The notes under the pieces: model-generated
The model's input: the letters and a program-made list of their open reading frames with translations, nothing else
Database searches by the model: none
What the model was told of the DNA's origin: nothing
Assembly (NCBI GenBank): GCA_022773425.1
Contig: JALFBM010000072.1
Span: 1 to 51,629 of the forward strand
Length of the DNA: 51,629 nucleotides
Direction: 5' to 3'
Origin: Selenomonadaceae bacterium
Lineage (GTDB): Bacteria; Bacillota; Negativicutes; Selenomonadales; Selenomonadaceae
Shown here: one piece after another, positions 20,811-46,773 of the stretch
How the letters are laid out: each line of letters starts with the position of its first letter
Position numbering within the stretch: the stretch's first letter is position 1
Made by a program: the position numbers and the translations under genes

Positions 20811-20920
20811 TTCTCTCATCTTTCAGGTAAAACCTGTGGAATTGGCACCGTTCAAACTACGCACGTCTGTGGTTGCCGCGACTTCATTGGGCCAGTCCCT
20901 CCGTCGCTCTAGATGATCCG
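20811..20920 (-). promoter_or_regulatory. SAM-I (S-box) riboswitch upstream of metK
   Basis: The minus strand carries the S-box core in order: P1 strand ATCATCT then AGAG, GGAGGGACTGGCCC, ATGAAGTCGCGGCAACC, GGTGCCAATTCC, CAGG, and CTGAAAGATGAGAG closing P1 (TCATCT pairs with AGATGA). It sits between a strong promoter and a terminator ahead of metK. By family knowledge, SAM binding favours termination. Confidence 0.96.
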
Positions 20921-41236: not shown

Positions 41237-41779
41237 TCAAAAGGATTTTCCATGCGGCAGGATGCGCGACAGATAGCGCCAAACAAAGAAGAACAGCGCG
41301 CACTCCAACGGATAACAAAGGATCAGCTTCGGTACGCGGGCAGCCAGGATCAGCGAAGCGCCCTTTTCATAGAACAAGACAAGCCAAACCGTATTGAGGA
41401 GCAGATGCACGAATACGGTCACGAGCAGGAACGCGGCCAAAACGAGCCAAAGATTGGGCCGCCGCCGATAAAAGAAGATGCCGTAAAGCCAGCCCGTGAA
41501 AAACGCCGAGACCGTAAAACCAGGGAAATATGCACCGGTTCCCAGCAGATTCGCCCCGAGAATATCCGCGAGCGCCGCACAGGTCCCCGCCTTGACCGGG
41601 CCAAGCCAGGCCGCGCAAAGCGCAACGGGAAGAAAACTCAAGCCGAAATGGACAAACGGAGTCTGGATGGCAAACACCCGGGCAAGCAAAACCGTCAGCG
41701 ACGTAAAGACGCCGAGCAAAACGAGTTCTCTCGTGCGTTTAACCGAGAACAGACGTGCACGAACCATAGAATTTCGCAT
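41237..41779 (-). CDS. folT: Folate ECF transporter S component FolT
   Basis: Membrane substrate-binding subunit for folate uptake by an energy-coupling factor transporter, which needs EcfA, EcfA' and EcfT encoded elsewhere. The 180-residue protein has about five to six hydrophobic helices, with FolT features TRELVLLGVFTSLTVLLARVF, IQTPFVHFGLSFLPVALCAAWLGP and LGTGAYFPGFTVSAFFTGWLYGI. The ATG at 41777-41779 follows GAGGAGG. The THF riboswitch in its leader confirms folate as the substrate class. Confidence 0.92.
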   Translation of the reverse strand: MRNSMVRARLFSVKRTRELVLLGVFTSLTVLLARVFAIQTPFVHFGLSFLPVALCAAWLGPVKAGTCAALADILGANLLGTGAYFPGFTVSAFFTGWLYGIFFYRRRPNLWLVLAAFLLVTVFVHLLLNTVWLVLFYEKGASLILAARVPKLILCYPLECALFFFVWRYLSRILPHGKSF

Positions 41780-41834: not shown

Positions 41835-41932
41835 AGCAGCGGGATGCAATGCCTGTACCGCGGGATTCCCCCTTCGTCCGGCTGACAACTCCCCGTTCAG
41901 CCGACACTTGACGCACAGACACTTACTCTGCT
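41835..41932 (-). promoter_or_regulatory. Tetrahydrofolate (THF) riboswitch upstream of folT
   Basis: The minus strand shows the conserved THF motif in order: P1 AGCAG then GAGTA, TGCGTCAAGTG, GGGGAGTTGTC, GGACGAAGG, CCCGCGGTA, GCATTGCATCCCGCT and the closing CTGCT. This agrees with the published folT-motif consensus along its whole length, and it lies in the leader of folT. Confidence 0.94.
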
Positions 41933-41955: not shown

Positions 41956-41984
41956 ACTATAGTACCGAACCATACGTTTGTCAA
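41956..41984 (-). promoter_or_regulatory. Sigma-A promoter of folT
   Basis: On the minus strand TTGACA (41979-41984), 17 bases, TATAGT (41956-41961), 24 bases before the riboswitch. Its -35 overlaps the stop codon of the upstream SHMT-like gene. Confidence 0.88.
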
Positions 41985-43318
41985 TGCTGTCCATCTTTAT
42001 GCAGGAACAGTTTTTTTACAAAATCCCTGCGTTCGGACGCGGCCACCTCACGCGCCGTCACGCGGTCACTGCCGTCGAAGAACCGATCGTGCACCCGCGC
42101 CTTTGGCAGCCATTCTTCACTGAAGATCGGCTTATCCATCACAGACATGCCGACCGTCTCGCGGATGGTCTCACGTTCCGCATCGGATGCCGCGCGGATG
42201 GCCTTTGCAAGAAGTTCCCCCGCTTTTTCCATATCGGATTCTTTCAGGGAGCGCGTCGTCGGCGACAGGCACGAAAGGCGCAGGATGCACAACGGCTCAC
42301 CCTTTTCATCGAGCAGCGTCTCATCTTTTTTGGTATAAAAACCAGCCTTTGCCATGTTTTCATCGATATGTGCCGCATCGATATCCGCCGGCAGCTTGGC
42401 GATGACGAGATGGTTTTCGGTTCCGCCGCTCAGCACCTCGATGCCGTTTGCCTGCAGGGATTTTGCCAGCGCTTTTGCGTTTTGCAAGACCTGTCGGCCA
42501 TAGGCGCGGTATTCGGGGCTTGCCGCCTCGTGCAGGGCGAGTGCAAGGGCCGCGAGCTTATTCTTGTGGATGGAGGCAAACCCGCTCTCAAGGACCGTCT
42601 GATCCAGAATGTCCGCGAGATTCTCCCGGCAGAGGATCACCGCTCCCTCCGGGCCGCGCAGAGAATCGTTGGTTGGAAACGTCACGACATCCGCGAACGA
42701 CACCGGGGAAGCCAGCAGGCCGGCCGCTGTGAGGCCGACATTCTGCCCGAGATCCACCCAGAATCTGGCCCCCGCCGCGTGCGCGATATCCGCCATCCTT
42801 CCGTAATCCGTCTGTTTCGCGTAGTTGACCGGAGAGAAAATAACGAGCGCCGGTTTCAGCGAATCCGCCTTTTCCTGCAATTCTGCCCAGTTGACTTCCC
42901 TCGACACAAGGTCAACGCCAAAGCTCGCAAACGTATACGCATCGCCCCGCACATGCTCCTTCTTGCGGTTCCGGAAAGATAGCACCTGCCCGCCGTCCGG
43001 CAGCAGGGCACGCAAGACGGTGCGCGACGCGGCCGCGATGCCGTCGAGGCGGACGATGGCGTGGTCGCTGTGGAAAAGCGATTTCGCGCGCTCGGCCGCG
43101 ATTTTCTCAAAGCCACGGTACGGCTGTTCCTTTGTGTGATAGTCCAGATAGCAGCTCGCGAGCACGCTGCCCTCAAGATACGCGGCGTACGGCGACTCCG
43201 CATTAATGGTTGGCACAAAAGACAGCATATAGCGCTGCCGCTGCAGTTCTTCCTGAAACCGGCCGAAAATCTCCGGGTCGAAATGCTCCAGTCCGCTCAG
43301 CAAGCTTTCTCTATCCAT
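41981..43318 (-). CDS. Serine hydroxymethyltransferase-like protein lacking the PLP lysine (probable pseudoenzyme)
   Basis: A 445-residue SHMT-fold protein. SHMT landmarks recalled from E. coli GlyA can be followed along the chain: EGSVLASCYLDYH, PYRGFEKIAAERAKSLF, FASFGVDLVSREVNWAEL, DIAHAAGARFWVDLGQNVGL, LRGPEGAVILC, VLSGGTENHLVIAKL and LRLSCLSPTTRSL. The aspartate under the PLP ring (Asp189) and the carboxylate-binding Arg347 remain. The THK motif with the PLP-binding lysine has become PTNDSLRG (Asn217-Asp218), the ring-stacking-side His is Gln192, and the GGQGGP loop is gone. About 50 C-terminal residues look unrelated. It is 48 bases after the SLC13 gene. Ordinary SHMT catalysis is not expected; the actual role is unknown. 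Confidence 0.82.
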   Translation of the reverse strand: MDRESLLSGLEHFDPEIFGRFQEELQRQRYMLSFVPTINAESPYAAYLEGSVLASCYLDYHTKEQPYRGFEKIAAERAKSLFHSDHAIVRLDGIAAASRTVLRALLPDGGQVLSFRNRKKEHVRGDAYTFASFGVDLVSREVNWAELQEKADSLKPALVIFSPVNYAKQTDYGRMADIAHAAGARFWVDLGQNVGLTAAGLLASPVSFADVVTFPTNDSLRGPEGAVILCRENLADILDQTVLESGFASIHKNKLAALALALHEAASPEYRAYGRQVLQNAKALAKSLQANGIEVLSGGTENHLVIAKLPADIDAAHIDENMAKAGFYTKKDETLLDEKGEPLCILRLSCLSPTTRSLKESDMEKAGELLAKAIRAASDAERETIRETVGMSVMDKPIFSEEWLPKARVHDRFFDGSDRVTAREVAASERRDFVKKLFLHKDGQH

Positions 43319-43366: not shown

Positions 43367-44626
43367 TCAAAGCGGCCATACCATGGGGATGACAACGACA
43401 CAGAGAATCATGGAAAGCACCGCAAGCGGCACACCGACCTTGACATAATCCATGAAGTGGAATTTCCCCGGCCCGAGTATGAGCGTATTCGGAGGCGTCG
43501 CGACCGGCGTCGTGAACGCACAGGAGGCCGCGATGCCGATGGCCATGAGAACCGGCAGCGGCGAGACGCCGATACCAGCCGCAATCGAGATGCCGATCGG
43601 CGCGAGCAGCGCGGCCGAGGCGGTATTCGACATGAACTGTGTGAGACCGCAGGAAAGGGTGAACATCGCGACCATGATGACCGTCGGCGAAGGATCCGAA
43701 CCGATGATATCGAGCACCCAGCCCGCAATCATCGCGCCGGCACCGCTCTTATCCATCGCCGAAGCGACCGGGAGCATGCCGGCAAACAGAAAAATGGTCG
43801 TCCAGTCGATGCCGTCATAGGCCTGTTTTTCCGAGACGCATCCCGTAAGCACACACGCGAGTGCCCCGATGATAGCGGACATATGCATGGGCACGTGAAT
43901 GGTCTTTTCAAAGGCCATCGCAAGGACCACACAGCCGAGAATGACCGCGCAGATCAGCATCTTCTTCTTGTCCTTTGGCGCCTCGGACACGATATCGTCG
44001 ATATTCTCGCGGTCGATATGATGCGGGCAGACCTTATACCCGACAAAGATCATATAGAGAATGCCGAGAATCGAAAGCGGAATGCCGATCCAGGCGAATT
44101 CGAAAAAGCCAAAGGACGGATAGCCGCTCGTCTCGAGCGTCGCGCTCATCAGAATGTTCGGCGGCGTGCCGATCATGGTGATGGTACCGCCGACGTTCGC
44201 CGCAATGGCCAGTGCCATGAGCTGCGGCGGCGCGGAGATGCGCGCGACCGCGCAGATTTGGATGACGACCGGTATCAGGCAGGCAACCGTCGCCGTATTC
44301 GACGAAATCGACGAAAGCATCACGGTGATCACCATCAGCGCGAGCATGAGCTTGCGCTCATCGCTTCCCGCGCGCCGTACCACAGCAATACCGATTTTCT
44401 GCGCGAGTCCCGTCTGGAACATCGCGGCGCCGACGACGAACATGCCGGCAAAAAGCACCACGGTCGAATTCGACAGTCCCGCGAATACCTGCGCCGGCGT
44501 CAATACGCCGAGCAGCCCGAGCGCGATTGCCGCCCCCATCGCGGTGACGGCGAGCGGAATAATCTCTGTCGCGAAGAAGAAACTCGCTACAGCTAGAACA
44601 AGCAAGGTCAATACGGCTGGATCCAT
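43367..44626 (-). CDS. SLC13/DASS family anion permease
   Basis: A 419-residue membrane protein with ten or more hydrophobic helices and two copies of the DASS hairpin signature, SSISSNTATVACLIPVV (near residue 105) and FMSNTASAALLAPIG (near 335). These bind Na+ and substrate in the family. Related carriers move di- or tricarboxylates or sulfate; the substrate cannot be fixed from sequence. GAGGTG precedes ATG 44624-44626. It is followed after 48 bases by the SHMT-like gene and is probably cotranscribed with it. Confidence 0.88.
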   Translation of the reverse strand: MDPAVLTLLVLAVASFFFATEIIPLAVTAMGAAIALGLLGVLTPAQVFAGLSNSTVVLFAGMFVVGAAMFQTGLAQKIGIAVVRRAGSDERKLMLALMVITVMLSSISSNTATVACLIPVVIQICAVARISAPPQLMALAIAANVGGTITMIGTPPNILMSATLETSGYPSFGFFEFAWIGIPLSILGILYMIFVGYKVCPHHIDRENIDDIVSEAPKDKKKMLICAVILGCVVLAMAFEKTIHVPMHMSAIIGALACVLTGCVSEKQAYDGIDWTTIFLFAGMLPVASAMDKSGAGAMIAGWVLDIIGSDPSPTVIMVAMFTLSCGLTQFMSNTASAALLAPIGISIAAGIGVSPLPVLMAIGIAASCAFTTPVATPPNTLILGPGKFHFMDYVKVGVPLAVLSMILCVVVIPMVWPL

Positions 44627-44699
44627 CTGCTCACACCTCAAATCATCTTGTTTGTACCTAATTTATCGATTCTATTTCATTTTGTTTGAATTGATTACT

Positions 44700-44773: not shown

Positions 44774-46099
44774 TCAGGCTTTGCCCGCGCGAATCTTCCG
44801 GCGCAGGGTGATCGTGAATTTCGTCCCCTTGCCCGGTGCACTGTCGATGTGAATGCTGCCCTTATGCAATTCGACGATTTCCTGCGCAATCGCAAGTCCG
44901 AGCCCATTGCCGCCCATCTCACGGGAGCGGGCCTTGTCGACGCGGTAGAATCGGTCAAAGATGCGTTTCTGGTCCTCCGGCGCAATACCGATGCCGTCGT
45001 CCTGCACGGAAAAACGGACGTGATCCTTATCCCCCGCGAGCCGCACGACGACGTGACCGCCCTCCGGCGTATATTTCACGGCATTGTCGACAAAGATCAG
45101 CACGAGCTGACGGATTTTCTGCTCATCGGCATGAATCTCGGTTTTCGGCAGGTCGCCGGCCGCAATCGTGACGTTTTTCTGCCCGGCGAGCGGACTCATG
45201 ACGCGCACAGTCTGCTCAATAACCCCCGCAAGGTCGAACTTCGTCGGTCGCAGCTTCAGCGCCTTGTTGTCGCTGCGCGCGACGACGAGCAGTTCGGAGA
45301 CGAGCTTGGTCATTTTCTTGACCTCATCGCGCACGTCGTCGATGACCTGTTTCAGGAACGGCGATTGGATGGATGGATCCTGTGCGAGCAGATCCGCCGA
45401 TGCCATGACGACGGCGAGAGGCGTCCGCAGCTCATGCGAAGCGTCCGCCGCGAACTGACGCTGCTTCTCATAGGCCTCCTTGAGCGGCTGCATGGTTTTC
45501 CCGGATAGGATATGGCCGATGCACATCGCGAAAATCAAGGCGATCACGCTGATGAACGAAAGCGCATACGTGGATTTCGAAAGGCCGCGGTACATCGCCG
45601 TGACATCCTTGCCGACGTAAACCGTCTGCACCATCGCGCCGTTTGCGTCAAACACGCGGCGCGCGGTCATCATGATTTTCGCTCCTTTGACGCCGCCCTC
45701 GCCCTTCTGTGTGTAGACGGACACCTCGCCTTCGCTGGCATCCCAGTCCGCCAGTACATCGAGGATAAACGGCTCGATATGAAACGACGCGCGGCTGAAA
45801 TTCACCAGCCGCCCGTCGTCGTCAAATACATAATAAAAGAGTTGATCGTTGTTGCTCTTGCTGAAATCCATCGAATCGTCAAGCGCCGCGCCAGGGTGCC
45901 GGTTCAGATAATCCTGTCCCTCGGCAACAGCCGTCGCCATATTCATGAGCTCGCGCGCCTGTTCGGACGTGATGGACCATTCCATCGTCTCATGCACGAC
46001 AAAAATCAACACGAACAACACCATCGCCATAGCGGCGGAATAAATCATCGTCATGCGCAGGCGGCTGCGCCCAAAGAGGTTTTCCCCTCCAGCCTTCAT
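44774..46099 (-). CDS. Two-component sensor histidine kinase
   Basis: A 441-residue membrane kinase. TM1 is about residues 13-35 (TMIYSAAMAMVLFVLIFVV) and TM2 about 178-200 (ALSFISVIALIFAMCIGHIL), enclosing an extracytoplasmic sensor of about 140 residues with no family I can name. HisKA holds the phospho-accepting His in FAADASHELRTPLAVVMAS near residue 220. The ATPase part has the N box LVLIFVDNAVKYTPEGG and QDDGIGIAPEDQ, then GGNGLGLAIAQ. It overlaps the regulator gene by four bases. The signal is unknown. Confidence 0.93.
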   Translation of the reverse strand: MKAGGENLFGRSRLRMTMIYSAAMAMVLFVLIFVVHETMEWSITSEQARELMNMATAVAEGQDYLNRHPGAALDDSMDFSKSNNDQLFYYVFDDDGRLVNFSRASFHIEPFILDVLADWDASEGEVSVYTQKGEGGVKGAKIMMTARRVFDANGAMVQTVYVGKDVTAMYRGLSKSTYALSFISVIALIFAMCIGHILSGKTMQPLKEAYEKQRQFAADASHELRTPLAVVMASADLLAQDPSIQSPFLKQVIDDVRDEVKKMTKLVSELLVVARSDNKALKLRPTKFDLAGVIEQTVRVMSPLAGQKNVTIAAGDLPKTEIHADEQKIRQLVLIFVDNAVKYTPEGGHVVVRLAGDKDHVRFSVQDDGIGIAPEDQKRIFDRFYRVDKARSREMGGNGLGLAIAQEIVELHKGSIHIDSAPGKGTKFTITLRRKIRAGKA

Positions 46100-46773
46100 T
46101 TTCCGGCCTCCAGCTTATACCCAACACCGCGGACCGTCTTGATGGTCGTTCCACCATCCTTGAGGTCGAGCTTCTTGCGGAGAATCTTCATATACGAGTC
46201 GATGTTGTTTGAGCTGACATCCGACTCGAGGCCCCAGATCCGGTCGAGGATGATGTCGCGCGGCACCACGATGCCGATGTTCTGCGCGAGCAGATCAAAA
46301 ATCTGAAACTCACGCGGCGAAAGCTGAATGACCTCATCCCCGCGTTTTAGGACCTTTGAGGTGCGGTTCAGCGTAAACTCACCGACCTTCACGACCTCCT
46401 GCTGGATTTTCTGCGTGGAGCGGCGACCGAGTGCGCGCAAACGCGCAAGCAGCTCCGCGAATTCGAACGGCTTGACGAGATAGTCGTCCGCACCGGCATC
46501 CAGTCCCGTCACCCGGTCTTCCACCGAGTCGCGTGCTGTGAGCATCAGGATGGCCTTGGAATACCCCTTCTTCCGCAGCGCGCTGCACGCATCCACGCCG
46601 GACATGCCCGGCATCATCCAGTCGAGAATCAGGATATCGTAGTCCGTATATTCTGCATATTCCACGATATCCGAGCCATTTGTCACCCATTCTACCTGTA
46701 TTTCATTCTGCTCAAGCATGTACTTGATGAGATTTCCGAGCCGCTTATCGTCTTCCGCCAACAAAACGCGCAT
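46096..46773 (-). CDS. OmpR/PhoB-family response regulator
   Basis: A 225-residue regulator. The receiver domain has the acidic pair in LLAEDDKRLG, the phospho-accepting Asp in LILDWMMPGMSG near residue 52, and LVKPFEFAELLARL. The C-terminal winged helix has LSPREFQIFDLLAQNIG and SNNIDSYMKILRKKLD. It is first in the operon and shares an ATGA-type overlap with the kinase gene. Targets are unknown; the nearby SLC13 gene and the tandem repeat at 41160 are only possible candidates. Confidence 0.94.
   Translation of the reverse strand: MRVLLAEDDKRLGNLIKYMLEQNEIQVEWVTNGSDIVEYAEYTDYDILILDWMMPGMSGVDACSALRKKGYSKAILMLTARDSVEDRVTGLDAGADDYLVKPFEFAELLARLRALGRRSTQKIQQEVVKVGEFTLNRTSKVLKRGDEVIQLSPREFQIFDLLAQNIGIVVPRDIILDRIWGLESDVSSNNIDSYMKILRKKLDLKDGGTTIKTVRGVGYKLEAGK

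Follow-up and report, generated by a model that had tools for sequence, protein, structure and literature searches.

Loss of the ancestral activity is known among paralogues of the fold-type-I PLP family, SPTLC1 being one case. Another is yeast Alt2 (PMC5960717). The proteins reported here are alike in that loss of the ancestral activity is predicted from their sequence, whereas Alt2 and SPTLC1 either partner enzymes or are single paralogues and the present proteins form a widespread bacterial family paired with anion transporters. Serine hydroxymethyltransferase (SHMT, GlyA), from which they descend, is among the most conserved PLP enzymes; here a large clade has apparently dropped the cofactor and kept the fold. 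The open-access literature that we searched describes no SHMT pseudoenzyme of comparable kind, nor any transporter of the DASS or GntP type that is accompanied by an SHMT-like protein.

The window, i.e. the whole stretch of DNA analysed, comprises 51,629 nucleotides of a Selenomonadaceae genome (contig JALFBM010000072.1). On its minus strand, positions 43318..41981 hold a gene with ATG start that is open for 445 codons, and both the reading frame and its almost end-to-end likeness to SHMT, recognised in the initial annotation, proved to be real. The SHMT domain PF00464 covers residues 10-368 of the 445-aa protein (1e-51), and solved SHMT structures align by sequence with residues 11-387. In the AlphaFold model (mean pLDDT 87), top structural matches found by Foldseek are again SHMTs, with TM-scores of 0.80 and 0.86 to SHMT crystal structures. 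The curated SHMT model NF000586 (NCBIfam) scores 203.9 bits, below its cut-off of 335. The host genome encodes a separate normal GlyA, as the initial annotation had asked to be checked, which scores 598 bits versus 175 for the gene studied here.

Alignment to Bacillus stearothermophilus (Bst) SHMT reveals that PLP-carrying Lys226 and its neighbour His225 are replaced by Asp218 and Asn217 (codons 42665..42670, minus strand; Asp218 is 42667-42665), that Gln192 stands for His200 and that the GGQGGP loop is lost. Two residues, Asp197 and Arg357, have been retained (here Asp189 and Arg347). All these assignments agree with the initial annotation. To see them at the level of the family, we compared 118 distinct homologues (94 from Selenomonadaceae and 24 from Succinivibrionaceae) with 47 GlyA sequences. 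The PLP lysine is present in none of the 118 homologues versus all 47 GlyA. Absence of lysine from the motif read as TND in the window is thus general, but TND itself is one variant only: the lysine position is occupied by Asp in 86 of 94 Selenomonadaceae sequences and by Gly in all 24 from Succinivibrionaceae; Glu, Ala, Asn or a gap are also accepted there. Three sequences with such a gap (L072, L074 and L076, reading PAYVLHG) have no adjacent transporter and belong to one branch of second copies in the genus of the window.

Loss extends beyond the lysine. Roles in SHMT have been assigned to Tyr51, Gly94, Ser95, Gly258, Lys226, Glu53, His122 and Asp197, the first four of which hold the PLP phosphate (PMC10397204). 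None of these four phosphate-pocket residues is conserved across the 118 homologues, and Glu53, which in SHMT serves catalysis or folate binding, is Asp or variable. Also lost are Tyr60, Tyr61 and Asn341, which we take to be residues with a role in folate binding. On the other hand, Asp189 (the partner of PLP N1), Arg347 and Arg356 occur in all 118 homologues, and His122 is retained in most of them. Five further residues, Arg118, Lys119, Ser162, Pro163 and Ser349, are fixed in 118 of 118 and differ from those of GlyA; counted from the start codon at 43318, the codons of Arg118-Lys119 lie at 42962..42967 (minus strand). At position 330, 115 of 118 homologues have Lys or Arg, and C-terminal Trp403 likewise sets the protein apart from GlyA. 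Judging by homologous SHMT positions, the newly fixed residues would line the old active site, Arg118-Lys119 forming part of a proposed anion pocket.

The protein thus has the fold of GlyA, can be aligned with it from end to end and retains Asp197, Arg357 and the motifs of the N-terminal part, but lacks PLP lysine, phosphate pocket and folate contacts. As far as sequence can tell, its descent places it in the SHMT fold family, yet the defining catalytic features are missing, so that the name serine hydroxymethyltransferase is unsuitable. Homology to an enzyme, loss of the catalytic motif and maintenance by selection together qualify it as a pseudoenzyme, its inactivity being putative. Genes of this kind will probably be mistaken for an additional glyA.

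Scanning genome contigs with the single sequence returned nothing, but matches were obtained with an alignment as query. In 101 genomes of Selenomonadaceae, many homologues were detected (38-52% identity), with scores far above those of GlyA; a profile built from 32 of them gives 561-682 bits for members and at most 341 for GlyA. Carriers made up 61 of 300 genomes in a survey of the class and 7 of 398 in a survey of the phylum. Every one belongs to Selenomonadaceae, no carrier outside this family being found among the 398 phylum genomes scanned. Named hosts include Selenomonas, Mitsuokella and Centipeda. A diverged branch occurs in rumen and gut Succinivibrionaceae (Gammaproteobacteria), where 36 of 57 genomes carry the gene. 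The orthologue search suggested in the initial annotation was thus productive, and the idea of a single-genome oddity was rejected, as homologues are spread over many genomes of both families. In a tree (quick search, SH-aLRT support only), 49 Selenomonadaceae and 4 Succinivibrionaceae sequences are split from 30 GlyA by a fully supported branch; pseudoenzyme homologues are a single clade separate from GlyA. A normal GlyA was also present in all carrier genomes checked, four from Succinivibrionaceae and three from Selenomonadaceae. Some genomes of the window's family have two normal glyA genes (L095 and L096 in G036; L104 and L105 in G099).

Frames are intact in both phyla, with one or two copies per genome, and dN/dS lies between 0.01 and 0.16 in 13 of 14 close pairs (0.30 in the remaining, very close pair). 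The pseudoenzyme is held under strong purifying selection in two unrelated bacterial families. None of the outcomes named in advance as fatal to the initial annotation, that is absence of orthologues, lysine at the PLP position or loss of the frame, was encountered.

We then looked at the genes that accompany the pseudoenzyme. In the window, the pseudoenzyme gene shares its operon with that of a DASS/CitMHS-family anion symporter, which lies 48 bp upstream (43367..44641, minus strand; TIGR00785 219.8 bits versus cut-off 198.6; PF03600 9e-82). Both SNT motifs typical of DASS/SLC13 carriers are kept in the alignment of this symporter, and close orthologues lie upstream of other homologues. The symporter gene, a secondary remark in the initial annotation, is the conserved partner. 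Overall, 83 of 98 distinct loci have a same-strand transporter directly upstream, which here denotes the match closest to the gene within 2.5 kb; the median gap is 53 bp and the gap is at most 120 bp in 58 of the 83. Transporters of four types are represented, DASS-a (38), GntP-like (27), DASS-b (12) and MFS_2 (6), so that 77 of 83 are DASS or GntP-like. Within 2.5 kb upstream, no recognised transporter was found in about 13 of 98 loci. Operon coupling of the pseudoenzyme with an anion transporter is recurrent in two phyla.

Among 101 sampled Selenomonadaceae genomes, 24 encode a close DASS-a (about 70% identity or more), and 23 of these also have the pseudoenzyme (hand count; the one without it is G007), versus none of 13 genomes in which only diverged DASS is found (also counted by hand). 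Gene order at 20 Succinivibrionaceae loci places DASS-a (50-62% identity) ahead of the pseudoenzyme in 15, two of which have a short, probably spurious ORF in between. Since DASS-a partners are found in most deep branches of the tree as well as in Succinivibrionaceae, DASS-a is suggested to be the ancestral partner, DASS-b and GntP-like transporters probably representing later swaps. By eye, the pseudoenzyme is followed in many Succinivibrionaceae loci (L263-L282) by a gene whose start resembles a tRNA-dihydrouridine synthase and next by an aldo-keto-reductase-like gene. In several genomes of one genus, oral-type Selenomonas (L036, L042, L043, L044, L045), two pseudoenzyme copies lie close together beside DASS-a, one of each pair having a short C-terminus.

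Gene context also bears on the transported substrate. In two loci (L080 and L082), same-strand order is DASS, pseudoenzyme, OAD gamma and OAD beta, and diverged DASS genes without pseudoenzyme likewise adjoin OAD beta/gamma. In Phascolarctobacterium, a DASS gene is encoded with the succinate-pathway cluster and is strongly expressed when a partner bacterium supplies succinate (PMC7568257). By analogy, these neighbours suggest that the DASS-a partner handles C4-dicarboxylates. Because other partners are GntP-like, the ligand may differ among branches.

With PLP residues lost, selection strong and a transporter as neighbour, a transporter partner or sensor that works without PLP is probable, and not a folate protein. 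We propose that in this SHMT paralogue PLP and folate sites have been erased, with a basic pocket in their place. This pocket would bind an organic anion, the likeliest candidate being a carboxylate akin to what the neighbouring DASS or GntP-like symporter carries. Soluble, probably dimeric and co-produced with the symporter, the protein would serve as its sensor or regulator, perhaps by direct action, and would tune uptake to the level of the ligand instead of acting as SHMT. We give this proposal even chances; the loci without recognised upstream transporter, the six of 98 with an MFS_2 symporter instead, and G007, with its close DASS-a but no pseudoenzyme, count against it. More tentatively, we suspect a new form of transporter control, in which a PLP-free, SHMT-derived protein uses the old active site to sense how much of a carboxylate has been imported and gates its partner symporter accordingly, both genes being inherited as a module that could exchange its transporter (DASS-a, DASS-b, GntP-like) during evolution. 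The clade has kept the SHMT fold, fixed a new set of residues and steadily stayed beside transporter genes in both phyla, which makes it a clean case of a repurposed enzyme. Since carriers are rumen, gut and oral bacteria living on exchange of organic acids, e.g. succinate to propionate, the pseudoenzyme may bear on control of dicarboxylate uptake.

Retained pocket residues could alternatively serve catalysis instead of sensing. Since Asp189 and, in most homologues, His122 are kept, non-covalent binding of PLP by the pseudoenzyme is possible. The protein might accordingly still convert the imported compound, either without cofactor, with non-covalent PLP or PMP, or on the relocated Lys119. Transporter-plus-enzyme pairs are a common gene arrangement, Arg347 and Lys119 are invariant, and the large number of charged residues that never vary points to chemistry or tight binding. 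Against this, phosphate-pocket residues are all lost together, the Lys226 position is more tolerant than expected of a catalytic site, and no second pathway enzyme is constantly linked to the loci. We consider a surviving enzyme rather unlikely, though it is the main rival.

Another explanation starts from the architecture of SHMT, whose active sites are built from both protomers (PMC10397204). The pseudoenzyme could form mixed dimers with GlyA, present in all carrier genomes checked, and thereby tune serine, glycine or one-carbon flux by anion supply. Within the family, the N-terminal part of SHMT is indeed well conserved as far as the GSxLxN stretch. However, Tyr51, Glu53, Tyr61 and Gly258, needed to complete the GlyA site, are lost, so a mixed dimer could only inhibit, and the genetic partner is a transporter, neither glyA nor a folate gene recurring beside the pseudoenzyme. 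Mixed dimers are therefore improbable, and regulation of the partner symporter is preferred.

Folate was suggested by the downstream neighbour in the window. As stated in the initial annotation, the pseudoenzyme gene is directly upstream of folT, the folate ECF transporter S component (41237..41779, minus strand; TIGR04518 4e-34), and a THF riboswitch aptamer (41835..41932, minus strand; RF01831 91.9 bits) is placed between both genes and thus leads folT, outside the conserved module. This adjacency and SHMT ancestry would fit a protein that senses folate or THF and works together with folT. Yet the adjacency is seen solely in the window genome: folT was found in no other neighbourhood of the family and the THF riboswitch in none of ten others. 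Moreover, folT above cut-off is absent from most pseudoenzyme-carrying genomes, and in G010 it lies about 290 kb from the pseudoenzyme gene. We therefore treat folT as a chance neighbour. Of the two co-occurrences to be checked, that with DASS (SLC13) recurs and that with folT does not; as folate-contact residues are lost too, the folate link was rejected and a folate sensor appears very improbable.

Finally, a decaying glyA copy carried beside a transporter, to which loss of catalytic residues and low pairwise identity to the window copy (about 40-50%) might point, is refuted by dN/dS of 0.01-0.30, intact frames in two phyla, retention of one or two copies per genome and eight positions fixed in 118 of 118 homologues, five of them non-GlyA residues, in agreement with the initial view that simple decay does not apply.

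Directly upstream of the DASS gene, the window encodes a histidine kinase (44774-46099) and a response regulator (46096-46773), both on the minus strand. This pair was considered as part of the module and rejected, no such recurring pair being seen at other loci. Elsewhere in the window, a SAM riboswitch (RF00162, 76.9 bits) is located at 20813-20919 on the minus strand.
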